Shown in pieces: positions 3,090-25,933 of a stretch of DNA of 30,359 nt. This stretch comes from a virus. Where the stretch lies: positions 1-30,359 of IMG/VR virus record IMGVR_UViG_3300024335_000033. One strand, given 5' to 3'. The position numbers and the translations under genes are program-made. The notes beneath the pieces were generated by a model, which searched no databases, had not been told where the DNA came from, and worked only from the letters and a program-made list of their open reading frames with translations. How positions within the stretch are numbered: position 1 is the stretch's first letter; the number at the start of each line of letters is the position of its first letter.

Positions 3090-3802
3090 TTACATTCAGA
3101 GAACACATTGAGATTAGTAAGTACATAGAAAAGAACAATACTATCTCAGAATACATAGACAAGCAGACCCCCGAAAAAAGGATTGACCTTGTAAGGAGGA
3201 TAGCAGAAACATATCCATTGAAGAAGGATATAGACTCAGACCTAAAAACCCTTAAAGGCAGAAGTATATCCGACAATGTTTACAGGTTAGTTCTTGGGCA
3301 ATTCATAATGATAGAGCAGATTATCACAGGGAAAAGTACTTACGAGTACGAGGCTATAAACGACCTTGAGTTAGCAAAGCTTATTATAAGGCCAGACCAT
3401 CACGATGTATTTGACAACGGTGATGATGAAGAAGAAGCACATAACGAACAGGCAATACTAAACGCCTCTGTTCAAGATGTGTATGCTGTTCTACAGAAGT
3501 TTTTAAAGAACAGGGATTTGGTTTTGTTCGAGCAGTTTAAGGGTGTGTTTTATGAAGTTCCCGATGAAGAAGAGGATGATGAGGATTCTACAGAAGAAGA
3601 AAGAACTGCCGAATCTTTATTCCAACAACAATGGTATTGGTACTCAATGGTTCGTATGTTAGCCAAAGAAGACATAACAAAGTACGAAGAAATATATATG
3701 CTTAACATGAGTACGGTAATGCCTGAGATGAGCTATCTTGCTCAGAAAAATAAGATAGAAGCAGCAAGGCAAAGACAGCAACAAGCCTTGAGCAAATTGT
3801 AA
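3086..3802 (+). CDS. probable tail assembly chaperone
   Basis: The ATG at 3086 overlaps the terL stop, giving 238 residues; an upstream TTG at 3035 would add 17 residues inside terL and is rejected. The protein is helical with two acidic linkers (about 110-120 and 172-190). Its C-terminal third has a WYWYSMVRMLA motif followed by a Gln/Arg-rich helix, resembling chaperones that coat the tape measure before tail assembly. Position upstream of the tape measure fits. I see no programmed frameshift site that would produce a G/GT-type pair. Assignment is by pattern and context, so it is moderate. Confidence 0.5.
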   Translation: MITFREHIEISKYIEKNNTISEYIDKQTPEKRIDLVRRIAETYPLKKDIDSDLKTLKGRSISDNVYRLVLGQFIMIEQIITGKSTYEYEAINDLELAKLIIRPDHHDVFDNGDDEEEAHNEQAILNASVQDVYAVLQKFLKNRDLVLFEQFKGVFYEVPDEEEDDEDSTEEERTAESLFQQQWYWYSMVRMLAKEDITKYEEIYMLNMSTVMPEMSYLAQKNKIEAARQRQQQALSKL

Positions 3803-3806
3803 ATTT
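3794..3806. promoter_or_regulatory. AATT-GTA-AATT element, copy 1
   Basis: AAATT-GTA-AATTT is a perfect palindrome around GTA. It overlaps the stop codon (3800-3802) of the probable chaperone and lies 13 bases before the ATG at 3819. It is one of six related sites at gene ends in the virion module. Confidence 0.45.
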
Positions 3807-3818
3807 AATAAATGAACT

Positions 3819-4256
3819 ATGGACGGTCTTTCATCTCTATATAATAAAGTCAAAGAATTTGCATCAGGGCATAAAATGGTCAATGAGTTTTACTTTGCAA
3901 GAAACGAGCAAGAGCTTAGAAACAAGGAGTTTGACTACAGAACTATTGTTTTAATGCCAACCGAAGGTAATATATCAAGAGACTTAAACTCTCCTATATA
4001 CACCATTGATTTCGCTTTGATTGTCTTGGATAAGGCTATATACGGTGACGATGCTAATGCGGTGAATGTTATAGAAGAAAACATATTTGTGATTGGTCAA
4101 CTTCAAGATTATCTTATCAAAGAAGACTACAGTGTTGATTTCGAGAACATTGACATAATGACTATGAACGATGAGAACTATACGGTATCATCAGCGATAG
4201 CGGACTTCTCTGTGCAGTTAGCGAGAAAGCCATATGTAATGGACACGAATAATTAA
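3819..4256 (+). CDS. putative tail terminator / head-tail joining protein
   Basis: This 145-residue protein has mixed alpha/beta composition. The central YTIDFALIVLDKAIYGDD and the following helix (NVIEENIFVIGQLQDYLI) resemble small tail-terminator proteins that cap the tail tube and set where elongation stops. I infer this from the pattern and from the location upstream of the tape measure, beside another neck-like gene. There are no catalytic motifs, Cys pairs or membrane segments. Its final TAA shares one base with the next ATG, so the two are probably translationally coupled. Another neck role is possible. Confidence 0.45.
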   Translation: MDGLSSLYNKVKEFASGHKMVNEFYFARNEQELRNKEFDYRTIVLMPTEGNISRDLNSPIYTIDFALIVLDKAIYGDDANAVNVIEENIFVIGQLQDYLIKEDYSVDFENIDIMTMNDENYTVSSAIADFSVQLARKPYVMDTNN

Positions 4257-4954
4257 TGGCAACATCATCAAAGCAGATAGCAAACAGGGTAAGAACTGTA
4301 ACGGCATTTGCGGTAATCAAGGAGTTTAGAAGGTCTAAGATTATTGAAAATATTGTTAAGTCGGCTCAAGCTAATGGACATATAGCTACAGGAGATTTAA
4401 TCAGCCCCGAATCTTCTAATTCTATAGTTCCGTTTCGTGATGACCTATGGCTTACACCAAGAAAGGGTGTTAAGCAGATAATCAAGGTAAGGGTGTACCA
4501 AACAAAATTTGGTATGCCAAGCACTATAAATGTAACTGTAAATCTTGGTGACTACGGTATACACAAAAGATACTCGGCACTATCTAAAGAACAAGTGCCT
4601 GTGCATAATCGGAATCAAGACTACTCGTCTTTTGACAAGGGAGATATGATAGAAAGAATTATACACTGGATGGAATACAAGATGGACAGGGGACATAGGT
4701 TTTACTACTCAGTAAAAAAAGGAGAAACAAAAGTATTGTCTCAAGGGGATGAGATATATAAACCAACAGCAGCGTTTGCGATAATGAGGTCTTTGGCTTC
4801 TAAGGGGCCTGACAAGACTAATTTTGCAAAAGCATTTAATGATTCAAGGTATGGGGTGCAGGCTACTCTTAGAAGAGCTATACCCATAGTAGAAGACAGA
4901 ATCTTTGAATCAATATCAATGAGCGCAGTTAATCACATAGAAACAATATTCTAA
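4256..4954 (+). CDS. putative neck/tail completion protein
   Basis: I do not firmly recognise this 232-residue protein. The N-terminus is basic and helical (QIANRVRTVTAFAVIKEFRR). The middle contains beta-strand-like segments (KQIIKVRVYQ, STINVTVNLGDYG), and the C-terminus is helical. It is coupled to the previous gene through a TAATG overlap and ends one base before the tape measure ATG. Genes in this slot commonly encode HK97-gp10-like or other neck proteins, so a structural role at the head-tail junction is likely. No enzymatic motif is visible. Confidence 0.5.
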   Translation: MATSSKQIANRVRTVTAFAVIKEFRRSKIIENIVKSAQANGHIATGDLISPESSNSIVPFRDDLWLTPRKGVKQIIKVRVYQTKFGMPSTINVTVNLGDYGIHKRYSALSKEQVPVHNRNQDYSSFDKGDMIERIIHWMEYKMDRGHRFYYSVKKGETKVLSQGDEIYKPTAAFAIMRSLASKGPDKTNFAKAFNDSRYGVQATLRRAIPIVEDRIFESISMSAVNHIETIF

Positions 4955-4955
4955 T

Positions 4956-7900
4956 ATGGCATCAAAAAGTAAAGCCTCAGAAAAAATACTACAGCTACAG
5001 CTTGAGTTAAACAAGGTTGTTCTTGAGTTAAAGAAAATGACTGAAGAAGGCAATAGTGGTGTTGCTGAATTTGAAAAGTTAAGAAAGAAGTTTGAGCAAT
5101 TATCAGGCGTTGTTAAGGGGGCTGAAGGTTCTGTAAAGAGGTCTTTTGGTCAGACTAAAGACTTAGAAAAGTACAAGGATAGGCTTCAACAATTAATTAC
5201 TGCTTTTAATAAAATCAAATCTGCTAACAACGAGATTGATAAGCAGGTTAAGAGACAAACTGAAGAGCAAACAAAGCGTAGAAAAAAGCAAATAGAGTCA
5301 GAACAAAGACTTCTTAGAAGTTCTATTAAAGAAGGAAATGCTCGTAGAACTGCTGCATTGAATCAGTTTGAAGCTCGTCAAAAAGAATTTAGAAGAAGAA
5401 GGGCTGCAAGGGAAAAGCAGATAGAAAGGGAAATAACCAACAACGCCATTAAGGAACAGAAGAGGCGTGACCAAGCAGCTAGCCAAGCATCTAAAAGAAA
5501 GGACTTTAGAGGTGGTTTTGGAGCGCAATTTACTCCAAGAGCTATTGGTGGTGCTATAGGTTCTTTGACTAAATACTTAGGTATATTTAGATTAGTAAAT
5601 GCAGCCACACAACTTTTTACAGAGTTAACATTGGGTTCTGCAAAACAAGCCATTGAATTTGAAAAGCAAGTAGCTAACCTTGGTGCTGTTGCAGGTGTGA
5701 GCGGAGAAAAGTTAAAAGAGTTAAGTAACAACGCTTTGGATGTAGCAGGTTCCACAAGGTTTACAGCAACAGAAATTATCGGGTTACAAACCGCTTTGGC
5801 TAAGTTAGGCTTTACATCAGAAGAAGTTATTAAGTCTACACAGTCAATAGCTAATGTAGCACAGGCACTTGGTTCTCCATTAGATGCTACCGCAGAACAA
5901 ATAGGTAAAGTTATCAATCAGTTTGACTTGCTTGTAGAGCAAGCAGATTTTGTTGGAGATGTTTTAGTTACAACGATAAATAACAGTGCTTTATCATTTG
6001 ACAGCTTTGGAACAGCTATTCAATATGTTGGGCCAATAGCAAAAAACTTAGGTCTTAGTTTTGAACAAACAGCAGGGGCTATGGCTGTGTTAGCAGATAA
6101 CGGATTTACAGCTTCTCGTGTTGGTACTGGTCTTAGGGGTATATTTACTGAACTTGGTAAAACAAGTGCTGATGTAGAAAAATCTTTAAAAAGTTTAGCG
6201 CAGCAAAACCTGTCTTTAAGTGAAGCCGTTGAGCTTGTAGGAAAAAGAAACGCAGCACAGCTTATAACACTTCTTGACAATATAGATGCCCTTGATGAAG
6301 GAACAGGAAAGTACTATGAGCAAGGAAGGGCTTTAGCGTCTTCAGCTCAACAATTAGATACTTTCTCAGGACAAATGTCACTTTTAAATTCAGCATTTAG
6401 AGAAACACAGATAAGATTTGGAAGCTTTATATTAGAGAGTGACTTAGTGTTAGATGTCCTTGGCTTATTAAGCCGTGAGGCAGAGGGTCTTGGTCGTGCT
6501 ATGAAAAACATTAACGAACTTGGATTCACTAAATTTAATGAAGGTGTTGAGAGTATATTAGCAGGGGACATAAAAGATGAGGAATTAGCTATAGAACTTG
6601 TAGCTAAAAGAACAGGTAAGTCCATAGAAGAAATAACCAAGAAGTACAAAGCGTATAGAGACGGTGTAATAGAAAGTACCTATGACCCAACTATTGGAGA
6701 AAGAAGAGATATGCTCATACAAAAAACTACGGATGAAGCCGTAGAGGTAGAGGGTCTTGTGGAGGAGATAAACAAACTTGTTGAAGCAAGAGAAAAGGAT
6801 TTTGCAATATCTCAAGGTCAAGCTGAGGCAACTAAAATTTATAGCAAAGAAGTAGAAGACCTTGTAGACAAATCTTTAAAAGGTGTTAATGTTAATAAAG
6901 AAGCAGACAAATTATACAAAGACCTTCAAGCAGGTATAAACTCTTATAGTAGAGCTTTAAAGTATAATAAAGATTTAACAGAGCTTCAAAGAGTAGAATA
7001 TGAAGCAGCAATTAAAACATTAAAAGGATACCAAGACCAAGTAGCAAATACACAAAGAACAGAAGAAGACCTTTCCAAAGAGCGTGAAAGGGCAAGAAAA
7101 AAAGCAATTAGCGAGGAAAAGAAAAGAATACAAGATGCTATAAAATTTGCTGATATAGAATTTAAAAACCAAGAAGATTCTATAAACAGACAGGCTGAAT
7201 TAAGAACAACTGCACAACAACAAATATTAGAAAGTGAAACAGCTACAAATGAAGAACGCAGAGCTGCTATAGAAGCTATCGCTGATATAGAAGAAAAAAG
7301 ACAGCAAGATGTTAGTGATGCGTACAAAAGAAAGGCTGAGGCTATACAACAAATAACCATACAATACGAAGAGAACGAAAGGGTTATTGATGCTGCACTT
7401 TTAAAAGCACAGCAATATGCGGTTATATATGACAATGATATTGTGAAAGATGCTTCTGCCGCATTGAAAAACTTTAGAGCTGAAACATCAAGGCTTACAA
7501 AAGAAAGAGAGGCAGGTAACATCAGCCAAGAAGAATACAATACCGCTATTCAACGAACCCAAGATGATTTTGAAGTTTATATTAAAAACTTGATAGCGAG
7601 TAATAACTTGGGAGAGGATGCTGAAAAGATATTGCTTAATATGGTTGAGGCATTCGATAGAATGGGTATAAGCATAGGTAATATCGGTGGAGAGGCTGCT
7701 GTTACTTCTTTAAAAGAATTTGCCGACAAGCTAAAAAATGACGAAGAGTTTCGTAGAGAGTTCTTTGGAGACCTAATGTCTAAGTCTGTAGATGCTGCTG
7801 CTGAATCCTTTAGCGCATTTAATGATGTAGCTTTAGAAAACACAAAGAACAGGTTAGAAAGCGAGTTAGAAGAAATAAAGAACAGGTATAAGATTGAAGA

Positions 7901-8600
7901 AGATATACTAAAAGCTTCTTTAGACAATCAGATAATCACAGAAAACCAGTACAGAGCAAAGCAAAAGGAACTTCAGAAAGCACAGATTGCTGAGGAGAAT
8001 GCTTTGAACAAACAGATATTTGATGCTGAGAAAAAGCAAGATAGAAATAGTGCTATCATTGATGGTACTGCTGCGGCAGCACAAGCCTTTGTGAACGCAT
8101 ACAAGACTGGTGAGCCTATAACGGCAAGTGTAAGAGCAACTCTTAGTGCCTCTATTATTGCTGCTCAAACGATAGCTCAAGTAGCAGCTATCAATAGTAG
8201 AAAGTTCTTCCCTGTGAAATACGAGAGTGGTGGTGTGGTCAATGGGCCAAGCCATTCGTCAGGCGGTGTTCCATTTACTGTGCAAGGTCAAGCAGGTTAT
8301 GAGATGGAAGGTGGTGAGTTTATTGTAAACAAGAAGGCTACTGCTATGCACCGAGACTTACTTGAAAGAATCAATGGCTCAGACAAAACTAATCCAAAGG
8401 TTGGTAAAACACATTTCCAATCGGGTGGTTTAGTTTCCGCTGTAAACAACGAAAGTGTAAATTACCTAAAGGCTATCGCAGAAGCTACCACATCAACGGC
8501 TATAAGCTCAAGTAAACCTGTAAGAGCCTTTATATCTTCTAAAGATTTGAGGTCTAATGAAAACGAAAGAAGACTAAGAGATAGAAACGATAGAATCTAA
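4956..8600 (+). CDS. phage tail tape measure protein
   Basis: At 1214 residues this is the longest gene in the window. Residues 1-180 are a Lys/Glu/Arg-rich coiled coil. Residues about 226-400 match the TP901-type tape measure core, including IEFEKQVANLGAVAGVS and a glycine-rich end (GTGLRGIFTEL). A second long coiled coil runs to about 1025. A hydrophobic Ala-rich segment (about 1031-1078) may insert in the host membrane. The C-terminus has a Gly-rich region (VPFTVQGQAGYEMEGGEFIV), typical of this family. The protein sets tail length and is expelled during infection. At roughly 1.5 angstrom per residue the tail would be near 180 nm, an estimate from a general rule. Confidence 0.92.
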   Translation: MASKSKASEKILQLQLELNKVVLELKKMTEEGNSGVAEFEKLRKKFEQLSGVVKGAEGSVKRSFGQTKDLEKYKDRLQQLITAFNKIKSANNEIDKQVKRQTEEQTKRRKKQIESEQRLLRSSIKEGNARRTAALNQFEARQKEFRRRRAAREKQIEREITNNAIKEQKRRDQAASQASKRKDFRGGFGAQFTPRAIGGAIGSLTKYLGIFRLVNAATQLFTELTLGSAKQAIEFEKQVANLGAVAGVSGEKLKELSNNALDVAGSTRFTATEIIGLQTALAKLGFTSEEVIKSTQSIANVAQALGSPLDATAEQIGKVINQFDLLVEQADFVGDVLVTTINNSALSFDSFGTAIQYVGPIAKNLGLSFEQTAGAMAVLADNGFTASRVGTGLRGIFTELGKTSADVEKSLKSLAQQNLSLSEAVELVGKRNAAQLITLLDNIDALDEGTGKYYEQGRALASSAQQLDTFSGQMSLLNSAFRETQIRFGSFILESDLVLDVLGLLSREAEGLGRAMKNINELGFTKFNEGVESILAGDIKDEELAIELVAKRTGKSIEEITKKYKAYRDGVIESTYDPTIGERRDMLIQKTTDEAVEVEGLVEEINKLVEAREKDFAISQGQAEATKIYSKEVEDLVDKSLKGVNVNKEADKLYKDLQAGINSYSRALKYNKDLTELQRVEYEAAIKTLKGYQDQVANTQRTEEDLSKERERARKKAISEEKKRIQDAIKFADIEFKNQEDSINRQAELRTTAQQQILESETATNEERRAAIEAIADIEEKRQQDVSDAYKRKAEAIQQITIQYEENERVIDAALLKAQQYAVIYDNDIVKDASAALKNFRAETSRLTKEREAGNISQEEYNTAIQRTQDDFEVYIKNLIASNNLGEDAEKILLNMVEAFDRMGISIGNIGGEAAVTSLKEFADKLKNDEEFRREFFGDLMSKSVDAAAESFSAFNDVALENTKNRLESELEEIKNRYKIEEDILKASLDNQIITENQYRAKQKELQKAQIAEENALNKQIFDAEKKQDRNSAIIDGTAAAAQAFVNAYKTGEPITASVRATLSASIIAAQTIAQVAAINSRKFFPVKYESGGVVNGPSHSSGGVPFTVQGQAGYEMEGGEFIVNKKATAMHRDLLERINGSDKTNPKVGKTHFQSGGLVSAVNNESVNYLKAIAEATTSTAISSSKPVRAFISSKDLRSNENERRLRDRNDRI

Positions 8601-9163
8601 TGAGTGATTACAATTTTTTACACAACCCTGCTATAAACCAAACCTTTAGCGGAACTGTTTCGGGAGAAGTTATAACCTTATCTTCGGGAAGCTTTGATAC
8701 TGGCGATGCTATCCACATAACCATAAGCGATACAGTAGGTGTTTATGCTTACTGTACCGATGGTGCTGCAAGGACATTTAAGTTTGACAGCGAGATATAC
8801 CAAAATGTGCCTGCTACCATTACAAACAAAACAGGTGAGTATTGGGAAGGGGTAAGTGATTTGGTGTACGATGATGTAGATTCTTACAGAATCGCAGCCA
8901 ATGTTAGTAAAGGGTTGTATTCCGATTCTTACTTGGTGTATAAAACATCTGTTGATTACAGCTTAACAATATCTTCAAAAAGAAGAGAGTTCTTTGAGAA
9001 CACTGCTAATAAGTCTGTGAAGAATTTAGTACTTGCAAACAACATTATATTTACCGACACCTGTAAAGAAGTGGCTTATAAGGTTTCTTTTAGAGACGAT
9101 GAGTTTGACTTTTTCAATAACAAGTTTAGGTCTTCATTAGAGTTTAATATCGCAACACGATAG
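8600..9163 (+). CDS. tail protein downstream of tape measure (distal-tail-like position)
   Basis: This 187-residue protein is rich in Thr, Ser, Asp and aromatic residues with alternating strand patterns, as in beta-sandwich virion proteins. No specific motif is recognised. It overlaps the tape measure stop by one base (TAATG) and is followed one base later by the large tail-tip protein. That is the slot of distal tail proteins in many siphoviruses. A role in the tail tip is therefore inferred from position. Cys residues occur singly, and no signal peptide or membrane helix is visible. Confidence 0.5.
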   Translation: MSDYNFLHNPAINQTFSGTVSGEVITLSSGSFDTGDAIHITISDTVGVYAYCTDGAARTFKFDSEIYQNVPATITNKTGEYWEGVSDLVYDDVDSYRIAANVSKGLYSDSYLVYKTSVDYSLTISSKRREFFENTANKSVKNLVLANNIIFTDTCKEVAYKVSFRDDEFDFFNNKFRSSLEFNIATR

Positions 9164-9164
9164 T

Positions 9165-11864: not shown

Positions 11865-11874
11865 TTGTAAATTA
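11862..11874. promoter_or_regulatory. AATT-GTA-AATT element, copy 2
   Basis: TAATT-GTA-AATTA begins with the stop codon of the tail-tip gene (11862-11864) and ends 5 bases before the ATG at 11880. The 15 bases before the ATG (TTGTAAATTAATACA) are identical to those before the portal gene. Confidence 0.5.
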
Positions 11875-11879
11875 ATACA

Positions 11880-12677
11880 ATGGCTACATACAACGACTAC
11901 CCACAATCTGCATCAAACAACGCCAAGAGAGTTCTTGAGTGGAAAAAGAAGTATGGAAAAGAAGTTAAAGGAATGACTTCTGTGGGGTGGACTCGTGCAA
12001 ACCAATTAGCCTCAAAAAGTAAACTATCCTATGAGACTATTGCTCGAATGGCTGCGTTTAACCGCCATCGCAAGAATGCTAAAATTGACCCTAAGTATAA
12101 GAGTACGCCTTGGAAAGATAGAGGTTATGTTGCTTGGCTTGGATGGGGTGGCACAAGCGGAGTTAACTGGGCGATTAGAAAAGCTGAGTCTATCCGAAAA
12201 GGACGGATTAAGGCAAGTGCTACAGTATCTGATGTCCCGTGGGGGAATCGCAAAGCTAAGGTTAAAGAACCAAAGGAGAAAAAGGATTACGCTACTCAAG
12301 GAAAAGATGGTAGCATTAAAAAGTCTCCCAAAGCTCCTAAGAGTAAAACTCCTGAGAAGAATCCTAAAGGTGTTGGAAAGGGTGGAAAGCTTTCTCCAAA
12401 GATTATTAAGTCTATAAACTCAAAGGTTAGTAAGCACAATGAAAAGTATCCCGACAAAAAGATTGGTACAGCGGCTGCAAAGCGTGTTGTCCTTCGTGGT
12501 ATGGGTGCTTTTAATACATCCCACTCACCAAAGGTTACCTCAGCGGTACAATGGGGATTGGCAAGACTAAACGCATTTATGTACTTGGTAAAGAACGGTA
12601 ACCCTTCTAACCCTAAGTACACACAAGACAACGACTTGCTACCTAAGTGGCACAAAAAAAGTAAGAAGAATGGATAA
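11880..12677 (+). CDS. DUF5824-like basic virion/maturation protein
   Basis: This 265-residue, very basic protein has three parts. The N-terminal domain (1-110) has SNNAKRVLEWKKKYG, VGWTRANQLASKS and LGWGGTSGVNWAIRK, a pattern I associate with domains attached to phage prohead proteases. The middle (about 115-170) is a Lys/Pro/Gly-rich linker. The C-terminal domain (about 185-255) has VLRGMGAFNTSHSPK and LARLNAFMYLVKNG, matching my memory of DUF5824. It overlaps the XkdF-type protease gene by 8 bases, so the two are probably coupled in head maturation. The basic linker might contact DNA or the acidic scaffold tail. Function is not established. Confidence 0.6.
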   Translation: MATYNDYPQSASNNAKRVLEWKKKYGKEVKGMTSVGWTRANQLASKSKLSYETIARMAAFNRHRKNAKIDPKYKSTPWKDRGYVAWLGWGGTSGVNWAIRKAESIRKGRIKASATVSDVPWGNRKAKVKEPKEKKDYATQGKDGSIKKSPKAPKSKTPEKNPKGVGKGGKLSPKIIKSINSKVSKHNEKYPDKKIGTAAAKRVVLRGMGAFNTSHSPKVTSAVQWGLARLNAFMYLVKNGNPSNPKYTQDNDLLPKWHKKSKKNG

Positions 12678-13698
12678 GTTACCATTATTTGATATAACAT
12701 TAGATGACATCGAACAGGGGATGTACAAGATTTCTTTGGTAGACAAACCTGCTATTGAGGAAAACTTTATCTACTTCAATGAAGTTAAGAAAATAGAGAT
12801 GTTTTCTAATGATGAAAGAAAAGAGGTTGTAGGGCCTATTATGATTCCTAACAAGGAAATCCTACGCCACAGTCCTGATATGGGATATTACTATGTACGG
12901 TTCACGGAAGATACTATCCGTGATATTATGTATAAGTATTCTAAAGAAGGGTTGTTTAACGCATTTGGCATCAACCACGCTCACGATACTGAGGATGTGG
13001 TTATGCTTGAAGTTTGGATGAAAGAATCAGAGAACGATAAGTCTAAGGACTACGGCTATAATCTTCCAAACGGTACAGTATTCGTAAAGGCTAAAATTGA
13101 GTCTGACGAATTGTTTAGCTCAATCAAAAGTGGGGAGATAAATGGTTTCTCCATTGAGATTAAAGCAGATATTAAACCAACAAATAAAGAAAATCAAATG
13201 AGTGAATTTGTTTTTGCAAAAGAGTTGGGTAAATTGGAGGCTCAATTTGAGGCTACAGTAAGCCAATTCAATGCTAAAATCGAAGCCTTGGAGAATGAGA
13301 ACGCATCTCTTCTCGAAGCATTGACATCTTTTGAAGAAAGTTTCGCAGGAGTGGATGAGTTAAAGTCCGCTATCGAAATGATTCAAAAGCACATCTCTTC
13401 TATGGGCGATATGGCTAAAGAAGAAGATGAAGAAGAAATGAAACATACTCCCGACCACAAGGAAGAAGAAAAGGAAGAGGAGATGAAGGAAGAAGAAAAG
13501 GAAGAGGATATGATGAAGGACGATGAGGACAAGTATTCTGCTACAGAAGAAACCACTGAGGCTGAGGTTGAGGAGCAATTTGCTGCTGAACAACAAGCAC
13601 CAGAGGTTGAAGAAACAGTAGAAGACAAGACTGTAGTCTTTGATGCTATTACTCCCGAAAAGATAGAAATTATCAACAAGTTCTTCGGTAAAAAGTAA
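12670..13698 (+). CDS. XkdF-type prohead protease fused to scaffold
   Basis: This 342-residue protein joins two functions. Residues about 50-168 match the XkdF putative serine protease family: VVGPIMIPNKEILRH, the His-containing NHAHD (H103, H105) and GEINGFSIEIKA, where S161 is the likely nucleophile. Residues 185-245 form a coiled coil and 250-320 a highly acidic Glu-rich tail, typical of capsid scaffolds that are degraded in maturation. An in-frame ATG at 13198 (residue 177) lies exactly at the domain border and could give a scaffold-only product. The gene sits directly before the major capsid gene, as expected. Confidence 0.8.
   Translation: MDKLPLFDITLDDIEQGMYKISLVDKPAIEENFIYFNEVKKIEMFSNDERKEVVGPIMIPNKEILRHSPDMGYYYVRFTEDTIRDIMYKYSKEGLFNAFGINHAHDTEDVVMLEVWMKESENDKSKDYGYNLPNGTVFVKAKIESDELFSSIKSGEINGFSIEIKADIKPTNKENQMSEFVFAKELGKLEAQFEATVSQFNAKIEALENENASLLEALTSFEESFAGVDELKSAIEMIQKHISSMGDMAKEEDEEEMKHTPDHKEEEKEEEMKEEEKEEDMMKDDEDKYSATEETTEAEVEEQFAAEQQAPEVEETVEDKTVVFDAITPEKIEIINKFFGKK
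13198..13698 (+). other. possible internal start producing scaffold alone
   Basis: An in-frame ATG at 13198-13200 follows the A-rich stretch aataaagaaaatcaa and would encode the 166-residue coiled-coil/acidic half without the protease. Nested scaffold starts are known in lambda (C/Nu3). The A-rich leader resembles leaders of other genes here. This is inference from position; no experiment is visible in sequence. Confidence 0.35.
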
Positions 13699-13712
13699 TT
13701 ATTGTAAATTAA
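13699..13712. promoter_or_regulatory. AATT-GTA-AATT element, copy 3, capsid leader
   Basis: TTATT-GTA-AATTAA starts directly after the protease/scaffold stop codon and opens the 47-base leader of the major capsid gene. The rest of the leader is A-rich (aaaataaaatataaaATG) with no Shine-Dalgarno sequence, as in highly expressed Bacteroidota genes. Confidence 0.5.
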
Positions 13713-13745
13713 GTAAAAGAATCGTTTTCCAAAATAAAATATAAA

Positions 13746-14726
13746 ATGGCAAATTTAAAATTCGATAATGTTGATGTAACAAACGCAGGTGACTGGGGTA
13801 ACCGTCAAGCAGGTTTGTTTATTGATACTATGATTAAATCAGCGGCTGTACTTGACCGCTTCACTATCGTTGATGGTGTAAAAGACAAGTTGAATGTTCC
13901 TGTATTCGCTATCGCTCCCGATAACGCATCAGGTGACCCTGTGGATGGATTCCGCACAGGAGCTAACTGTACTTTTGATGACAACTGGACTGCTGACATC
14001 ACTGAAAAGGAAATGAGTGTAACAACATTTGCTTGGGGCTTCAAGAACTGTAAAGATGCTCTTGAGTCTTCTTACCGTAGCTTGATGCTAAAGAAAGGTC
14101 AGTTGAATCCTGAGACTTTAGATGCTGAATTCCGTTCTTGGATGTTTGACCGCTTCTCTAAAGTGGCTGCTGAGAAAGCATTGTTACTTGCAGGCTCTCA
14201 GCTTACTACTGCAATGACAACTGGTGCTGATGCAGTTGATGCTGCACAAACTATAGTTGTTTCTACAGATGCTGCTACAGGTGACCTACAAAAGTCTGCC
14301 GAGATATTAGATGTTCTTGAATTAGCTTACTTGGCTATGAGCAGCGAAATGGCTTCTGCTGTTTATGGTGATGCTGACCGTGAGTTTAAACCTGCAATCT
14401 TCTTAGGTACTACTGCTTACCAAGCATACCAAATTGCTATGGCTCAGGACTTTAAGAACGCTGCTTTAGCAACAAGCGATTCTATTTCTCGTGGTGCGCT
14501 TCCTGCTTACTACGGAATGGAAGTTATTCACTTTGCTCCATTAGCTGCTGACACTGCATTTATCACTCCTCCAAGTAACTTGGTGTTGTTGACTGATGAC
14601 TACAATGATGTTCGTGCTATCGGTTCAGAATACGAGCCTCGTGAACACGCTGAGTACTTGTACGGAAGATTCAAATTAGGTTTTGACTATATGCAGTCTA
14701 AGAACATCGTTCTTATCAAACCTTAA
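13746..14726 (+). CDS. major capsid protein
   Basis: This 326-residue protein follows the protease/scaffold gene and is the expected HK97-fold shell protein. The N-terminus includes WGNRQAGLFIDTMIKSAAVL; the middle has a long helix (about 105-155) and Ala-rich spine-like segments. The C-terminal part (about 255-326) contains YYGMEVIHFAPLA and a terminal strand ending NIVLIKP, common in this fold. The fold call comes from size, composition and context, since capsid sequences diverge quickly. A 47-base A-rich leader upstream and a strong hairpin downstream suggest high, separate expression. No cleavage site can be fixed by eye. Confidence 0.8.
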   Translation: MANLKFDNVDVTNAGDWGNRQAGLFIDTMIKSAAVLDRFTIVDGVKDKLNVPVFAIAPDNASGDPVDGFRTGANCTFDDNWTADITEKEMSVTTFAWGFKNCKDALESSYRSLMLKKGQLNPETLDAEFRSWMFDRFSKVAAEKALLLAGSQLTTAMTTGADAVDAAQTIVVSTDAATGDLQKSAEILDVLELAYLAMSSEMASAVYGDADREFKPAIFLGTTAYQAYQIAMAQDFKNAALATSDSISRGALPAYYGMEVIHFAPLAADTAFITPPSNLVLLTDDYNDVRAIGSEYEPREHAEYLYGRFKLGFDYMQSKNIVLIKP

Positions 14727-14743
14727 CAAATTAACTAACTAAT

Positions 14744-14763
14744 GGAAGGGCTTCGGCCCTTCC
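14744..14763 (+). terminator. UUCG-loop hairpin after the capsid gene
   Basis: GGAAGGGC (14744-14751) pairs perfectly with GCCCTTCC (14756-14763) around a TTCG tetraloop, an exceptionally stable fold. No T-run follows (tataat instead), so it is a weak intrinsic terminator at best. It may instead stabilise the capsid mRNA 3' end or give partial termination. Confidence 0.65.
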
Positions 14764-14781
14764 TATAATACCTCATAAATT

Positions 14782-15324: not shown

Positions 15325-15330
15325 TAACAA

Positions 15331-15343
15331 TCTTGTAAATTAT
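15331..15343. promoter_or_regulatory. AATT-GTA-AATT element, copy 4 (degenerate left arm)
   Basis: TCTT-GTA-AATTA lies 7 bases after a gene end, but here no gene starts directly behind it. CTTGT (15332-15336) can also pair with ACAAG (15345-15349), which shares three bases with the left arm of the terminator that follows. Confidence 0.35.
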
Positions 15344-15346
15344 AAC

Positions 15347-15378
15347 AAGGGGAGTGGAGTAATCCTCTCCCCTTTTTT
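15347..15378 (+). terminator. strong rho-independent terminator
   Basis: AAGGGGAG (15347-15354) pairs with CTCCCCTT (15367-15374). After one T-T mismatch, GGA (15356-15358) pairs with TCC (15363-15365), closed by a GTAA (GNRA) tetraloop. A run of six T follows the stem C's (15373-15378). This is a textbook intrinsic terminator separating the first tail-tube-like gene from the decoration gene. Confidence 0.85.
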
Positions 15379-15393
15379 AATATAAATATATAT

Positions 15394-16527: not shown

Positions 16528-16538
16528 AATAAAATAAT

Positions 16539-17072: not shown

Positions 17073-18388
17073 TGGGATATTTAACAAATTCGGGTACAGG
17101 CTTTATGAAGGATGCAGTAACTACTGTGTCTAATGTAAAATCTTACCTTGTAAACAAAACAGGATACCTTGTTGATGCTATTAGAGTAGGCATTGGTGAC
17201 TTCGGTCAAAGGGTGTTAGACGATGGTGGTACTGTAGAGGCATCTGCTGAGGCTGCTGCATCGTACAGGGAGATTACAGAAACTGTATTTGATTCTGCAT
17301 CTTTAGTCTTGTTTCCTTCAGGATACAAGGAATCTAAAGTATATTCCCACAAGCCTATAAGTGGTGATGGAGATTTAATATATTCTCGTGGTACGGATAC
17401 TGCTACAAGGGTTAACGAGCAAGGATTGATAGAAAAGGAAAGCGATGGCTTAACAGATTCTATGCCTCGTATAGATTACACAGGAGGAGAGCCTTCTTTG
17501 TTATTAGAACCTCAAAGAACTAATCTACTTCCATATAGTGAGGATTTTAGCCAATGGACTATAGATACAGGGGTTACATTAACATCTAATACTACAGACC
17601 TTGTGAGTCCTGATGGCACTAATAACGCATCTAAGTTTACAAGCTCAGTATCAGATAAAGGCTTCTACAAGGGCGGATTAAGCTCAACTGCTCAGTCAAC
17701 AAGAAGCATCTATTTAAGGGGTGCTGTAGGTGGTGAGCAAGTTATATTAAAAGACCCAAGTGGAAACGGAGGAAACACACCTGTTACACTAACAACATCT
17801 TGGGTTAGATACACACACAAAACCGATAGTGGTTCTTCTTATCAAGGTCTTTATATTGACGATATAGCATCTACAGATACAATATATGCTTGGGGAGCGC
17901 AATGGGAAGAAGGTGATGGAGAAACAAGCTACATACCCACTACAGGTGCTTCAGCTACAAGAGCTGCTGATAGCTTTAACACCCTAACATACGCTGATAA
18001 CTTTAATAGCCTTACCTTTTATGCTGAGGTAGAAATGAAAGATGTTATTAGAGACGATATAACATCAGCTATTAGATTTGGAGAGCAGTCAGGTAATAAC
18101 GGTTCTATAAGAATATTTAGAAGTTCATTACTGAATCCTAAAAGAGCTGTAGTAATAGCAAGGGATTTAAGTGGCGATAATATTATAAACTATACTGTTA
18201 CTGAAGATAGAATAAAAATAAAACTAACTTACGACAGAAGCCCTGATGGAGATTGGGAATTGTTTATCAACGGAAATTCGGAGGCAACAGGAACAAGCAC
18301 AGACTTCAACGAGTTTGATACACTTGAGATTAGTGGTGTAGGTGGACAAGCAAGAATCTACAAAATGTACATAAAGAACAGTATTTAA
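17072..18388 (+). CDS. receptor-binding fibre protein, cassette 1
   Basis: The 438-residue protein begins with a short helical anchor (about 1-70) likely to attach it to the virion. It continues with DSASLVLFPSGYKESKVYSHKP, SRGTDTATRVNEQGLIEKE and PSLLLEPQRTNLLPYSEDF, a module typical of phage tail fibres. Residues about 150-280 look like a carbohydrate-binding beta-sandwich, ending in TSYIPTTGASATRAAD. Residues about 300-438 resemble a concanavalin/LamG-like lectin domain (FYAEVEM, WELFINGNSEATG). It shares this order with the 20085 gene. Each fibre is followed by a related small protein, so the pair forms a cassette. Host-surface glycan binding is inferred. Confidence 0.65.
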   Translation: MGYLTNSGTGFMKDAVTTVSNVKSYLVNKTGYLVDAIRVGIGDFGQRVLDDGGTVEASAEAAASYREITETVFDSASLVLFPSGYKESKVYSHKPISGDGDLIYSRGTDTATRVNEQGLIEKESDGLTDSMPRIDYTGGEPSLLLEPQRTNLLPYSEDFSQWTIDTGVTLTSNTTDLVSPDGTNNASKFTSSVSDKGFYKGGLSSTAQSTRSIYLRGAVGGEQVILKDPSGNGGNTPVTLTTSWVRYTHKTDSGSSYQGLYIDDIASTDTIYAWGAQWEEGDGETSYIPTTGASATRAADSFNTLTYADNFNSLTFYAEVEMKDVIRDDITSAIRFGEQSGNNGSIRIFRSSLLNPKRAVVIARDLSGDNIINYTVTEDRIKIKLTYDRSPDGDWELFINGNSEATGTSTDFNEFDTLEISGVGGQARIYKMYIKNSI

Positions 18389-18389
18389 T

Positions 18390-18713
18390 ATGAGGCAGTT
18401 CCGTAAATACGAGTTCGGTAGCAAAGGTGCTGCCACCACAAAGATAAACGCTTTAGGCGTAGACGAAGAAGGTAACCCTACACACAACCACATCATAGCA
18501 CACTTAGGTGAAATAGAAGGCTCTAAGAGCTACCATATAGATGTACTATGGGATGGTGAGGCAGACCCTAATTGGAATAAACAAATGATATGGTGTGAGC
18601 CAGTAGGACTACATACCTTTGGTGCTAAATCAGCACAAGAATATACAGCAGCGTATTACGAGGCTAATCCTGAGATGATACCTGTTGTTGAAGAAGAAGA
18701 AATAGAAGAATAA
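18390..18713 (+). CDS. fibre companion protein, cassette 1
   Basis: This 107-residue acidic protein starts one base after the preceding fibre. It shares a full-length pattern with the 22252 gene: RKYEF near the start, a helix, DEEGN, a buried LG, then DVLWDG, a Trp, WCEPVGLHTFG and a Tyr-rich EYTAAYYEANP end. It closes with a Glu-rich tail (VEEEEIEE). Because both copies directly follow a paralogous fibre gene, it is probably a fibre chaperone, cap or attachment adaptor. I know of similar small proteins in Flavobacteria phages but not of a proven function. Confidence 0.6.
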   Translation: MRQFRKYEFGSKGAATTKINALGVDEEGNPTHNHIIAHLGEIEGSKSYHIDVLWDGEADPNWNKQMIWCEPVGLHTFGAKSAQEYTAAYYEANPEMIPVVEEEEIEE

Positions 18714-18723
18714 TTGTAAATTA
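18711..18723. promoter_or_regulatory. AATT-GTA-AATT element, copy 5
   Basis: TAATT-GTA-AATTA begins with the stop codon of the companion gene and lies 13 bases before the ATG at 18737. It is identical over 13 bases to copy 2. Confidence 0.5.
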
Positions 18724-18736
18724 AATAAAGAATAAT

Positions 18737-19012
18737 ATGTCTTTCGAGAATATAATTAAAGACGGTAATTTCTACCAAGCAAGTACAGGAGACTACGGAT
18801 TTAAGTTGATTAGTGCAGGTGAAACAGCTACAGGTAGTTTTCGTTCTATCCAAGTGTTAAATACTAATGCTGAATTAACTGCTGTTTGTGCTGTAGGAGA
18901 TAGTATAACGACTAACCTTACAATACCTAAAGGTGCTGTAATCTTAGGTAAATTTACATCTATTACATTGTCTGCATCTTCAGGTAAAGTAATCGCTTAT
19001 CTTGCATCTTAA
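18737..19012 (+). CDS. small virion protein of receptor-binding block
   Basis: This 91-residue protein has a beta-rich pattern: GSFRSIQVLNTNAELTAVC, a TIPKGAVILGKFTSITLSA segment and an end in GKVIAYLAS. I recognise this as a short structural protein common in marine phages, where it sits among fibre genes and ends in a hydrophobic strand. Its role is unknown; it may be a base plug or decoration subunit. It shares one base with the following gene (TAATG), so the pair is likely coupled. Confidence 0.5.
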   Translation: MSFENIIKDGNFYQASTGDYGFKLISAGETATGSFRSIQVLNTNAELTAVCAVGDSITTNLTIPKGAVILGKFTSITLSASSGKVIAYLAS

Positions 19013-20076
19013 TGGCATTTCTTAATACACTTTCTACATCATATTTAAGTGTTTCAAGAAGTTCATTAGGTACAGGTGCTGCATTAGATGAGTTCGGACA
19101 AAACGCTTTATTCGGTTATTCTTTACGAAAAGTAAGGGATGATTCGGACAAGTGTATCCGTGTGGTTAGAGGCGATGGAGATAATGTAGAGCAAGATATT
19201 GGCTTTACTTCAGATGGTGTTGTAGACATAGAAGCTATAACTACTTTTGCTCAAGGCTTTCCTTGCTATGTAAAGCTATGGTACGACCAAGTTGTATCAG
19301 GAGGTACTTTTCATCTTGGCTCTACTGTAGAGGCTCAACAACCACTTATTGCAGGTAACAGCGACCATATATGGCAAGATATGGAAGACCTATGGTACGC
19401 TTCATACGACACTTATGGGTATGTATATATAGACCCTTCTAACAACCTACCTTACATATACTTTGGTGAGGGTAGATATTTTCAGTTTGTAGAAACAGGA
19501 GGCAACTATGCGGACTCAAGCGGTTGGTCTACACAAGTTACAAACCTGACTAATGATTATAGCGTATTCTTCTTAGGTCAGTCCGATAGATTTGGAGGCA
19601 CAGCCAATATACTTATTGGTGATGGTGGTAACGACAGGGTTAACTTGTCTGATGATGCATCTGTTTATAGCGTTAACGGAACAGGAGCTGCAATAAGTTT
19701 GTCTGATGGTCTTAATAACCCTTATGTTTGGGAAATAGAAAGAGATGCCTCTAATAACTTATCATTGTACAGAAACAATACTAATTTAATTACAAGCACA
19801 ACAACAGCACCAGGGGAATTTACCATAGATAAAATAGGAGAGTTCTTTAATGGTGATGTATTTGAGATATTGGGCTATAGTGCTACACAGGTAGAAAGAG
19901 ACGATTTATATGATAATATAGATGAGTATTACGGAATAGAAACCTATACTTCTTTAGCCGCTGTATATGCTGATGTATTCCTTAGTCGTATACAACTTGA
20001 TGGAGGAGCTATGGAATCGCCTTCTTGTTTAGCTAAGGATTTATCTCCTATGTTAAATGATGATGAACCACAATAA
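19012..20076 (+). CDS. virion protein with arabinofuranosidase-B-like domain
   Basis: In this 354-residue protein, residues about 31-120 (FGYSLRKVRDDSDKCIRVVR, NVEQDIGFTSDG, YVKLWYDQVVSGG) follow the pattern of the alpha-L-arabinofuranosidase B (GH54-type) catalytic region, where a YDQ motif is conserved. I know similar modules in phage fibre proteins, where they probably bind or trim glycans. The middle (about 130-290) contains lectin-like strands, and the end is acidic (SPMLNDDEPQ). Catalysis is not proven: I cannot confirm that the catalytic acids are kept. Position between two fibre cassettes supports a role in host attachment or capsule degradation. Confidence 0.6.
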   Translation: MAFLNTLSTSYLSVSRSSLGTGAALDEFGQNALFGYSLRKVRDDSDKCIRVVRGDGDNVEQDIGFTSDGVVDIEAITTFAQGFPCYVKLWYDQVVSGGTFHLGSTVEAQQPLIAGNSDHIWQDMEDLWYASYDTYGYVYIDPSNNLPYIYFGEGRYFQFVETGGNYADSSGWSTQVTNLTNDYSVFFLGQSDRFGGTANILIGDGGNDRVNLSDDASVYSVNGTGAAISLSDGLNNPYVWEIERDASNNLSLYRNNTNLITSTTTAPGEFTIDKIGEFFNGDVFEILGYSATQVERDDLYDNIDEYYGIETYTSLAAVYADVFLSRIQLDGGAMESPSCLAKDLSPMLNDDEPQ

Positions 20077-20084
20077 ATTTATAT

Positions 20085-22247
20085 ATGAGTTTTTATAACG
20101 ATGCAAGTTTAGTATTCTTACCAAGCGGTGGTGCAGGGAAAGATGGGAAGGCTTATAGTATGAAGCCTGTTCCCGAATATGGTAGCGAGTTAGTTACTAA
20201 TGGTGGTTTTGATACTGATAGCGATTGGAACTTAACATCAGGCGGTACAGACGCAAATATATCTAACGGCAAGGCTAACTTTGTAAATGCTGTCAAAGGG
20301 CAGAGGATTCAACAAAACTTTAGTTTTACAGCTGCGAAAACTTATAAAGTAGTTTTTACGGTTTCCAATTATACAAGTGGTTTATTAGGATTTTATATGG
20401 GTGGTGTTTACGCTGTCTCTAATATTAACGCAAACGGTACTTATACTTATTTGGTTACACCAACAAATAATGCAGAAGCGTTTTTAAGAGCTATGCAGAC
20501 AGGGGTGTCGCATAATTTTTCAGTAGACGATATATCAGTTAGAGAAGTAGTTGTAGGAGATGGAGACTTCACCTTTTCAAGAGGTTCAAACCTAACGGCT
20601 ACAAGGGTAGATAGCAACGGACTGATAGAGAAAGGAAGGGAAAACTTGCTTACTCAAAGTAATAATTTTAGCGATTCGGATTGGACAAAAGCAACGGGTA
20701 ACATTGTTACGGGTGGTCAATCGGGTTATGATGGCTCTACCGATGCTTGGGAAATTGAATCACCTTCCAATAATTATATTTTTAGAAGAACGAATACTCA
20801 AGGAGGAGTACAAACTTTAAGTATATATGTAAAGAAAAATACATCTTATGGTATTCGTTTGTATGCTTTTGGAACTGATAACGCTAATGTTTATTACGAC
20901 CTAAATACGGGTGTAGTTGTAGCGAGAGATAGCGATGTCATTGATGATAGCATAACCGATGTTGGTAATGATTGGTGGAGAATCACAATGACTTACAATC
21001 AAACTAACACTCAATTATATTTCTATGTTACTGATAATTCAAATACTTTAGTAAGTGGAGGGACTCTTGTAGTCCAAGATGCCCAATTAGAACAATCTTT
21101 AGTAGCTACTGAATACATTGAATCGGGAGCGACAAAAGGCAAGGCAGGTATTTTAGAACACTCCCCAAGATTTGACTATAGCGGTGGGGCAAGTTGTCCG
21201 AGTCTTTTACTTGAACCGAGTAGGACTAATAGCTTTAATTATAGCGAATATTTCGGAGGCTTAACAAAACTTAACGCTACTCTTGAAACAAATAATACTA
21301 CAAGCCCCGAAGGTTTACAAAACGCATCAAGATTTCTTTCAGCAGAAAATGACACGCTTTCAAAGTACATTGATTTTCAAGGAAGCGCACCACCTTCAAC
21401 AGAAAATCAAGTATTTTCATTATTTGTCAAAAATTATAACCATAGATACATTCAGCTAATTAACAATGGGGATGCTGATTTATATGCAAATTTTGATATT
21501 GCAAATGGTATTATAGGAAATTATGGTAGTGGAACAACTGCATCTATTGAAGACTACGGCAATGGATGGTACAGATGTACTATTGTTTGCGATGGCTCAC
21601 AAAACAATATAAATAGTGCGTGTAGAATTTATTTAGTAGATAGTCTTACACAAGGATATGCTAATCAAACAAATGTAGCTTTAGGTAATGGTGTGTATAT
21701 ATGGGGAGCAATGCAAGAGAACAATGCCTCTTACCCAACAAGCTACATACCTAACCATAGTGGCGGAAGCGTTACGAGGGAGGCGGATTTTTGTGAAGGT
21801 GCTGGAACCTCATCTACCTTTAACGATGCTGAAGGAGTTTTGTATGCGGAAATAGCGGCTTTAGCTGATGATGGTACAAATAAATACATAAGCATAAATA
21901 ATGGAGGTACGGATGATTATCTTTTTTTAAGATACAGAAGTGATAACAGGTTCCAAGTAAGATACAGAAGCAACAACACTGATAGTTTAAACGAAACCTT
22001 TGACTTATCTAATAATTTAGATTTTAATAAAATAGCGGTTTCCTATAAAAGAAATGAGTTTAAGATTTTTGTAAATGGCTCACAAATAGGTAGTACAGAT
22101 ACAAGCGGAACGATTTTTAATGTATCAGTAGATAATTTAGACTTTGAATCATTTAATGGAGGTAGTAATTTTTACGGCAAAGTAAAACAAGTTATTGTAT
22201 TTAATACTGCCCTATCCGATGTTGAATTAACTGCGCTAACCTCTTAA
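20085..22247 (+). CDS. receptor-binding fibre protein, cassette 2
   Basis: This 720-residue protein is a larger relative of the 17072 fibre. It starts with DASLVFLPSGGAGKDGKAYS and has two carbohydrate-binding-like repeats. The first covers about 35-155 (ELVTNGGFDTDSDWNL, then SRGSNLTATRVDSNGLIEKG) and the second about 185-560 (ENLLTQSNNFSDSDW; PSLLLEPSRTNSFNYSEYFG). The end (about 585-720) looks like a LamG-type lectin domain (KIAVSYKRNEFKIFVNGSQI). The N-terminal anchor of the smaller fibre is missing, so it may attach in another way or on another fibre. Expected to bind host surface sugars. A paralogous companion gene follows 4 bases later. Confidence 0.65.
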   Translation: MSFYNDASLVFLPSGGAGKDGKAYSMKPVPEYGSELVTNGGFDTDSDWNLTSGGTDANISNGKANFVNAVKGQRIQQNFSFTAAKTYKVVFTVSNYTSGLLGFYMGGVYAVSNINANGTYTYLVTPTNNAEAFLRAMQTGVSHNFSVDDISVREVVVGDGDFTFSRGSNLTATRVDSNGLIEKGRENLLTQSNNFSDSDWTKATGNIVTGGQSGYDGSTDAWEIESPSNNYIFRRTNTQGGVQTLSIYVKKNTSYGIRLYAFGTDNANVYYDLNTGVVVARDSDVIDDSITDVGNDWWRITMTYNQTNTQLYFYVTDNSNTLVSGGTLVVQDAQLEQSLVATEYIESGATKGKAGILEHSPRFDYSGGASCPSLLLEPSRTNSFNYSEYFGGLTKLNATLETNNTTSPEGLQNASRFLSAENDTLSKYIDFQGSAPPSTENQVFSLFVKNYNHRYIQLINNGDADLYANFDIANGIIGNYGSGTTASIEDYGNGWYRCTIVCDGSQNNINSACRIYLVDSLTQGYANQTNVALGNGVYIWGAMQENNASYPTSYIPNHSGGSVTREADFCEGAGTSSTFNDAEGVLYAEIAALADDGTNKYISINNGGTDDYLFLRYRSDNRFQVRYRSNNTDSLNETFDLSNNLDFNKIAVSYKRNEFKIFVNGSQIGSTDTSGTIFNVSVDNLDFESFNGGSNFYGKVKQVIVFNTALSDVELTALTS

Positions 22248-22251
22248 ACCG

Positions 22252-22620
22252 ATGGATATAACAAGAAAATACGAGTTCGTAGATGAGGCAGAAGCTAATG
22301 AAGCTATTGACCTTTTAAGAGATGAGGAAGGAAACCTTACCGAATCGGTGGTTAAGTTAGGCTACCTAACCATTACACCAGCGCAATATGATGAGGAAGG
22401 CAACACCATAAAAGAAGCAGTAGTATCTACTAAATACGCAGTAGATGTAAGCTGGTCAATAACACCTCTACAATCTTGGGAGGCTTATATCGTTTGGCCT
22501 ACGCCTATGGGTATTCACAATTACGGAAGCAGTAGCCAAAGAGATGAGTACGCTAAGACCTATTGCGAGTTATATCCCGATAGTGAGTATTGTAACCCAC
22601 CCGAAATAACTGAAGAATAA
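22252..22620 (+). CDS. fibre companion protein, cassette 2
   Basis: This 122-residue acidic protein is a paralogue of the 18390 gene, with TRKYEF at the start, LRDEEGN, KYAVDVSW, WEAYIVWPTPMGIHNYG and a Tyr-rich end followed by PPEITEE. It carries an extra insertion (TITPAQYDEEGNTIKEAV) relative to the first copy. Like its partner, it directly follows a fibre gene. A dedicated chaperone, cap or adaptor for its own fibre is a reasonable inference, and differing inserts could reflect adaptation to each fibre. No enzymatic motif is seen. Confidence 0.6.
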   Translation: MDITRKYEFVDEAEANEAIDLLRDEEGNLTESVVKLGYLTITPAQYDEEGNTIKEAVVSTKYAVDVSWSITPLQSWEAYIVWPTPMGIHNYGSSSQRDEYAKTYCELYPDSEYCNPPEITEE

Positions 22621-22623
22621 TTA

Positions 22624-22959
22624 ATGAAGCGTCTTAAAACAGGAGTTGTAAATACTTTGTCTTTTGTAAAGTTATCATCGTTTGCTATTAACAGCTTTGA
22701 TGTAACTTTGGAAAAAGTTGTAGGTACTGGTAGCTTAACTATCACCAACTTAACAGATACTAATAGTTTGGATTCCTGTAAAGATTTCATCAGACTAAAC
22801 ATTGATTTAATAAACAATGATTTAGAAGGTGGTGAGTATCACCTTACGATTACCAATGATGGCAACGACTATGTTTATCTTGGTACAGTAGAAAGCTATA
22901 CAACCACACAAACAGGAGCAGGTGTTTATTCATCTACTGTTAGGTTTACAGACCTATAA
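22624..22959 (+). CDS. small beta-rich virion protein
   Basis: This 111-residue protein has an immunoglobulin-like strand pattern: SFVKLSSFAINSFDVTLEK, EGGEYHLTITNDGNDYVYLG, and a closing strand (STVRFTDL). I associate the EGGEYHLTI...G type of segment with small phage structural proteins of unknown role. It sits between the second fibre cassette and the portal gene, three bases after the companion stop. It may be a virion surface protein; a head-tail role is also possible because of the adjacent portal. Confidence 0.45.
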   Translation: MKRLKTGVVNTLSFVKLSSFAINSFDVTLEKVVGTGSLTITNLTDTNSLDSCKDFIRLNIDLINNDLEGGEYHLTITNDGNDYVYLGTVESYTTTQTGAGVYSSTVRFTDL

Positions 22960-22970
22960 ATTGTAAATTA
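22958..22970. promoter_or_regulatory. AATT-GTA-AATT element, copy 6, portal leader
   Basis: AAATT-GTA-AATTA starts within the stop codon of the preceding gene and ends 5 bases before the portal ATG. The 15 bases preceding the ATG match those at 11865-11879. Confidence 0.5.
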
Positions 22971-25916: not shown

Positions 25917-25933
25917 AGGTATTTTAATCTACA

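Follow-up and report, generated by a model that had tools for sequence, protein, structure and literature searches.

A conserved box at late gene junctions of a small marine phage and a candidate gp55-like sigma factor that may read it

The virion genes of the phage represented by IMG/VR virus record IMGVR_UViG_3300024335_000033 (hereafter, the window, that is, the whole stretch of 30,359 bases that was analysed) are punctuated by a short, recurring element, which raises the question of what this element does and what reads it. The original prediction, made from the letters of the window, described six AATT-GTA-AATT sites at virion gene junctions as palindromes that could be promoters or operators, RNA processing signals or translation signals. 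All six sites are indeed present in the sequence. Our analysis indicates that the virion genes are quite probably expressed from late promoters that are read by the host RNA polymerase together with a phage-encoded, gp55-like sigma factor.

Gene content and likely host

The late genes occupy the plus strand, from ~1.1 to 24.9 kb of the window, and the minus strand carries early genes (primase/helicase-like and RusA-like) along with the lysis genes. The recognizable late genes, all on the plus strand, encode the terminase large subunit, TerL (1839..3089; phrog_2, E 5.7e-45), preceded in the same operon by gene 1392, which is in the position of the small terminase; the tape measure protein (4956..8600; phrog_28, E 1.6e-44); an S78-type head maturation protease (Peptidase_S78_2, 12670..13698; Pfam E 3.9e-14); and the portal protein (22976..24217; phrog_11226, E 3.2e-24). 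The product of 13746..14726 (plus strand), which has no family match, is a candidate for the major capsid protein by gene order, its gene adjoining that of the protease. The endolysin (amidase) is encoded on the minus strand (25482..25916; phrog_822, E 6.8e-58). The GC content of the phage is 38%, and the gene junctions are AT-rich, as is the element itself. An Rfam search of the window yielded no matches.

The host is likely flavobacterial because the nearest cultured portal protein, with 23% identity to that of the window, comes from Nonlabens phage P12024. A search of genome contigs with TerL returned no match, and the same search with the sigma factor candidate described below retrieved one 3.8-kb contig, from a MAG labelled Euryarchaeota, that is likely a misbinned phage piece; the host therefore stays presumed.

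A one-directional box at late gene junctions

Comparison with 160 related loci, which were collected by TerL and portal searches, identified the conserved unit as TTGTA[A/G]ATTA-N4-AA(G), located on the late strand and running in one direction only. The left AATT half of the original motif is weakly conserved, as A/T only, and is frequently supplied by a TAA stop codon, and the right side runs on, on one strand, as N4-AA. Thus, the element is asymmetric rather than palindromic, and a palindromic operator was rejected given the asymmetry of the conserved bases, the mere A/T preference in the left half and the strand-specific downstream AA. In the logo of the relatives, no base is conserved upstream of about -4 and no -35 element is apparent.

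On their late strands, the related loci and the window together contain 280 copies of the core TTGTA[AG]ATTA, compared to ~13 expected under a second-order Markov model. The great majority of these cores (252 of the 280) have a stop codon no more than 12 nt upstream, and 12 fall within a gene on the same strand, so that the preference for junctions that the original prediction proposed to check in the relatives holds. Nine control patterns, with rearranged or changed letters, were found at late-strand junctions either never (eight patterns) or four times (the ninth). The window alone contains five cores on the plus strand and none on the minus strand, with 0.27 expected per strand; the maximum among 400 Markov-3 simulations was two. 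When one mismatch was allowed, the window contained eight copies of AATTGTAAATT, compared to an expectation of 2.3, and each of 100 shuffles contained fewer than eight.

The larger records among the relatives mostly contain three to six late-strand cores apiece; the sole larger record without a TTGTA core (L133/G008) carries TCGTAAATTA at the same junctions instead. Most late genes lack the element. Core matches on the reverse strand of the relatives fall mostly within conserved coding sequence of early genes and were set aside, and GTGTAAATTA at 8455, inside the tape measure gene, is kept as coding sequence in the relatives and was left out of the promoter count. The box is not enriched in the first 50 kb of Tenacibaculum phage pT24. 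In the open full-text library that was searched, no paper contains TTGTAAATTA as a word.

Spacing and predicted transcription starts

At the 41 distinct junction sites that have no ATG nearby, counting from the first base of the core, position 15 is A in 95% of the sites, position 16 is A in 98% and position 17 is G in 66%. Where an ATG is close, the start codon most often begins at position 16, such that A16 is the A of the ATG; indeed, 83 sites have exactly 5 nt between the box and the ATG. Altogether, the distance from the box to the ATG varies (commonly, 5, 12-13, 30-34 or 47-56 nt), and the distance from the box to the AA pair is constant, in agreement with a -10-type promoter whose transcription start is fixed. 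Because the fixed spacing runs to the AA pair and not to the start codon, we infer that transcription starts at this pair, and with the start so placed, the box spans about -14 to -5. From the same two observations, the fixed distance to the AA pair and the ATG at position 16, it is predicted that the mRNAs of the portal gene and of gene 11880 have at most one untranslated base, that is, are leaderless. At the portal junction of the aligned relatives, pairwise identity is 96% for the box and 34% for the end of the upstream gene, and the box is retained although the upstream gene itself differs between relatives. Thus, of the promoter/operator suggestion, the promoter part is supported by the start-site signature and the spacing, and the operator part is not, given that the element is asymmetric and one-directional.

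Predicted late promoters of the window

Seven late promoters (P1 to P7) are predicted on the plus strand of the window. P1 (1080..1094), a weaker match (TTGTATATTA-N4-A; PWM 10.6) with a start predicted at 1094/1095, lies ahead of the operon of gene 1392 and TerL (1839-3089), and relatives have similar TTGTA[GT]ATTA boxes ahead of the first late gene. P2 (3797..3811; TTGTAAATTT-N4-A) precedes the operon of gene 3819 and the tape measure gene, at a junction where a cluster of 40 relatives has TTGTAAATTA in the same place. P3 (11865..11879) belongs to another junction represented by a cluster of 40 relatives, and its A16 coincides with the A of ATG 11880, predicting a leaderless mRNA. P4 (13702..13716; cluster of 20 relatives) would leave a leader of ~30 nt to the capsid-position gene at 13746. 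P5 (15333..15347) is conserved in relatives and has a perfect core. P6 (18714..18728; PWM 23.0) is located ahead of 18737. Finally, P7 (22961..22975), covered by the aligned portal junctions of the relatives, has as its A16 the first base of the portal start codon (ATG 22976), and again a leaderless mRNA is predicted.

The original list of six sites was thus real and incomplete: it missed the box at 1080 as well as a minus-strand box at 25934 (ATGTAGATTA). The site at 15331 that it called degenerate matches the TTGTAAATTA core perfectly and differs only in the non-conserved left bases. The leaders at 11865 and 22961, reported as identical, are so (TTGTAAATTAATACAATGG); these two sites, however, do not precede a real leader, as the start codon falls on the predicted transcription start.

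The minus-strand variant ATGTAGATTA (25925..25934) lies ahead of the endolysin gene. In the relatives, ATGTA[AG]ATTA was found at minus-strand junctions in 23 cases and inside a same-strand gene in one. The variant box of the window might serve as a late promoter for the lysis cassette, which is encoded on the opposite strand.

A terminator-like, G-rich hairpin followed by a T run (15348..15380, plus strand) begins at the predicted start of P5. The hairpin is conserved, with 8 pairs in 12 sequences, three of which (pairs) have changes on both sides. Such a structure directly after the box is odd for a promoter and counts against the promoter reading of this site. It could be either a protective 5' hairpin of the transcript of the next operon or a terminator of the upstream operon whose overlap with the promoter is tolerated.

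A candidate sigma factor without region 4

A -10-type box without a -35 element points to a sigma factor lacking region 4. An ORF that lies among the minus-strand early genes (26179..26592) is present in 66 of the retrieved loci and is kept in all relatives that reach this region, with one likely exception. It encodes a protein of 137 amino acids for which the AlphaFold model (pLDDT 81, pTM 0.70) predicts a sigma region 2 fold, with no further domain and, in particular, no region 4. The top Foldseek match in the PDB is 7d7c_F, that is, T4 gp55 in the gp55-RNA polymerase-promoter complex (probability 1.00, E 0.068; TM 0.57/0.59, rmsd 2.0 over 97 columns); the next better-supported PDB matches include region 2 of sigmaE and SigC, and the viral structure matches include proteins named late-transcription sigma factors as well as a protein of Tenacibaculum phage pT24.

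At the sequence level, the resemblance is faint. Searches of the candidate against Pfam, PHROG and PDB sequences produced no significant match, and only 2 of its 36 members matched a late-sigma PHROG (best E 0.0058). The profile-profile comparison with gp55 using hhalign was colinear and marginal (probability 4.7%, P 0.0086), with a score of 22.3 compared to a maximum of 19.2 among 100 column-shuffled controls; comparing the lone gp55 sequence with the alignment of the candidate was uninformative. The C-terminus of the candidate is conserved (KDDYLSEKL-like). By its predicted fold, the protein is gp55-like, and we do not claim homology as proven.

Next to the sigma gene, on the minus strand, lies a gene for a helical, HTH-like protein of 72 amino acids (26567..26785; model pLDDT 83). 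A fold search with this model gave no convincing PDB match and did not support the identification of the protein as gp33.

Co-occurrence and joint change of the sigma candidate and the box

Each of the 60 loci that include the sigma gene together with one or more late junctions has the box; the remaining six of the 66 loci with the sigma gene, which lack the box, begin inside the portal gene. Two related genomes, G008 and G020, carry a different box, TCGTAAATTA-TAAA-AAG, at the same junctions as the usual one. Their sigma candidates are 45% identical to that of the window and have G in place of T95 and D in place of N98, in a helix that is otherwise strongly conserved; T95 is nearly invariant, and N98 is invariant among the phages with the TTG box. 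That the box and the sigma factor changed together in the TCG lineage, a single lineage with two genomes, is suggestive. Divergence of the sigma candidate alone does not alter the box given that L069, with a candidate of 48% identity, retains the usual TTG box. A 53-kb relative, G019, has good TTGTAAATTA boxes and no recognizable gp55-like gene in the sequence examined. The sigma gene is missing also from G011, where the contig ends at the place the gene would occupy. Together with the modeled fold, the distribution of the gene makes it probable that protein 26179-26592 recognizes the box.

Alternative explanations

The box could be a promoter that is read by a host sigma factor (Bacteroidetes sigma-ABfr), or by a different phage factor, and not by the gp55-like protein. 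We consider this unlikely. The TAAATT within the box does line up with the -7 element of Flavobacterium when A16 is taken as +1 (PMC6847099), and G019 combines boxes with the lack of a recognizable gp55-like gene. However, T-6 G-5, near-invariant in the host element, is absent from the box, which has a fixed TTG added upstream, TANNTTTG shows no enrichment in the window (40 occurrences vs 37.5 expected), and the other suitable relatives do have the gp55-like protein, which is diverged where the box changed. More generally, no clear excess of host TTTG/TANNTTTG promoters was detected in the window, and E. coli-type promoters numbered 53 against 61 expected. A search of 10 records for a single-subunit phage RNA polymerase (PF00940) found no match and failed to detect its positive control as well.

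An action of the box in RNA is less plausible still. Cleavage of the polycistronic late mRNA behind stop codons by an RNA endonuclease acting at UUGUAAAUUA, which would define the 5' ends and would be a form of the RNA processing that the original prediction offered, is compatible with the sequence and explains less than a promoter does. The position of the box just behind stops, its set distance from the conserved AA and the location of the 15333 site directly before a conserved hairpin all agree with cleavage, and a start and a cut are indistinguishable by sequence alone; yet most sites have no conserved structure around them, a sequence-specific nuclease would be needed and none is seen, whereas a sigma-like protein is, and a variant box precedes the lysis genes on the other strand. 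The geometry of the box and the AA pair agrees with that of -10 elements, and because it matches the T4 late promoters, the phiEco32 promoters and the Flavobacterium -7 element, the promoter is favored over an RNA signal. A role of the A/T-rich leader as a translation enhancer of highly expressed virion genes would suit the many boxes located 5 nt ahead of an ATG and the lack of Shine-Dalgarno sites in Flavobacterium, which prefers A at -3 and -6 (PMC6847099), but the box-to-ATG distance commonly ranges from 5 to 56 nt while that to the AA pair is fixed, most late genes are without the element, and at 15333 a hairpin intervenes between the box and the ATG; the translation signal of the original prediction thus appears very improbable. 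There is hardly any chance that the box is an artefact of composition: it is AT-rich, like the junctions of this phage with its 38% GC, but the ~20-fold excess is confined to one strand and the control patterns are flat.

A possible late-gene switch and its relationship to known systems

Under the promoter reading, each late operon would be headed by one TTGTA[A/G]ATTA box that serves as a -10-type element without a -35 element. The host RNA polymerase, carrying the small phage sigma factor (26179-26592, minus strand) with its gp55-like region 2, would read the box and begin at the A pair that follows it after four bases, yielding transcripts that start with AAG or, in the case of the portal gene and of gene 11880, leaderless transcripts that start with A(A)UG. 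The absence of region 4 from the sigma candidate agrees with the missing -35 element. The sigma factor would be a product of the early operon on the minus strand and would subsequently activate the virion operons of the plus strand and, probably, also the minus-strand lysis cassette, through the weaker ATGTA[A/G]ATTA box.

Most likely, a very small phage unrelated to T4 here employs a late-gene switch of the T4 style. In the T4 late promoters, an 8-bp box precedes the start by about one helical turn and there is no -35 element (PMC2988020), and the promoters predicted here similarly have a single AT-rich box of 8-10 bp about one turn upstream, without a -35 element, at virion genes (PMC2988020, PMC7892883); the predicted region 2 fold without region 4 likewise resembles gp55. 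Unlike in T4, the box is TTGTAAATTA and not TATAAATA, with 6 of 8 positions matching in the best alignment (TGTAAATT), and the phage, at ~38 kb, is outside the T4 group. According to a review of T4 late transcription, coupling to the sliding clamp is found only in T4 relatives (PMC2988020). A search of eight records for the bacterial-type beta-clamp family found no match and detected its positive control; a search for the T4 gp45 family, which had no working control, found no clamp either. Most likely, then, late promoters served by a phage-encoded gp55-like sigma factor represent a known principle, of the T4 type, in a new variant with a different box. More tentatively, a gp55-like sigma factor might, with no phage sliding clamp, drive a cascade of late mRNAs that are short and in part leaderless, in small marine phages that are abundant and whose hosts are presumably flavobacterial, the sigma factor and the promoter having changed together, from TTG to TCG, in at least one lineage.

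Sequence-family searches alone reveal neither this regulatory map, of seven late operons and the lysis genes, nor the sigma candidate, which together apply to a large and uncultured group of marine phages. With a gp55-like sigma factor in a ~38-kb phage in which no clamp was detected, the role of the sigma factor could be examined independently of that of the clamp. That the box and the sigma candidate changed as a pair suggests natural orthogonal promoter-sigma pairs for Bacteroidetes and, if true, the joint change from TTG to TCG provides a natural series for reading the sigma-to-box code.

Other systems show partial resemblance. The phiEco32 sigma factor gp36 reads single-element promoters (tAATGTAtA) with starts 6-8 bp downstream (PMC8948821); the two phages share a sigma factor of their own without region 4 (here, a candidate), a single -10 element and opposite directions of the early and late genes (PMC8948821), and differ in the sequence of the box. 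In the Bacteroidetes primary promoter (-33/-7, sigma-ABfr), the Flavobacterium -7 element TAHHTTTG comprises T-12 A-11 and T-8 T-7 followed by the near-invariant T-6 G-5 (PMC6847099); the TAAATT of the box is placed equally relative to the start (PMC6847099), but the box reads TAAATTA-N, without T-6 G-5 and with the extra upstream TTG. Nonlabens phage P12024S differs in its box and its portal protein is only 23% identical, yet it, too, has a box just ahead of the ATG of many genes (TTTCCGTTAATATA) and a sigma-70 region 2 gene, comparable to the candidate sigma region 2 protein of the window.

The start site predicted for P5, a putative late-promoter box at 15333..15347 (+), is the exact first base of a conserved G-rich hairpin with a T run (15348-15380). 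Relatives share this type of arrangement, with a hairpin and T run beginning at the predicted start site, and two related loci, L042 and L055, each contain a second site of this kind. Directly 3' of the gene in the capsid position lies a short hairpin (aagggcttcggccctt; 14727-14781) that lacks a strong T run and is possibly a partial terminator. The tape-measure gene of relatives keeps an internal, box-like GTGTA[A/G]ATTA; the window copy (8455-8464 (+)), which we classed as coding sequence, may be an internal start.

The gene for the predicted gp55-like sigma factor adjoins, in the window and in most relatives, a gene for a 72-aa helical, HTH-like protein (26567-26785 (-) in the window), a possible counterpart of gp33, the T4 late-transcription coactivator. 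In the relative G019 (L262-L264, 53 kb), no gp55-like gene was recognisable despite the same boxes; a different or displaced sigma, if present, would be informative. A sigma relative, 58% identical, is encoded on a 3.8-kb contig (L291, JABJFP010000307.1) of a MAG labelled Euryarchaeota; the contig is likely a misbinned phage piece.

Nonlabens phage P12024S (L175, NC_018271) has its own repeated motif, approximately TTTCCGTTAATATA, immediately 5' of the ATG of many genes (at 3031, 5412, 23961, 25201 and other positions), and its gene B617_gp33 carries a sigma-70 region 2 annotation; together, these probably represent another phage-specific promoter system.
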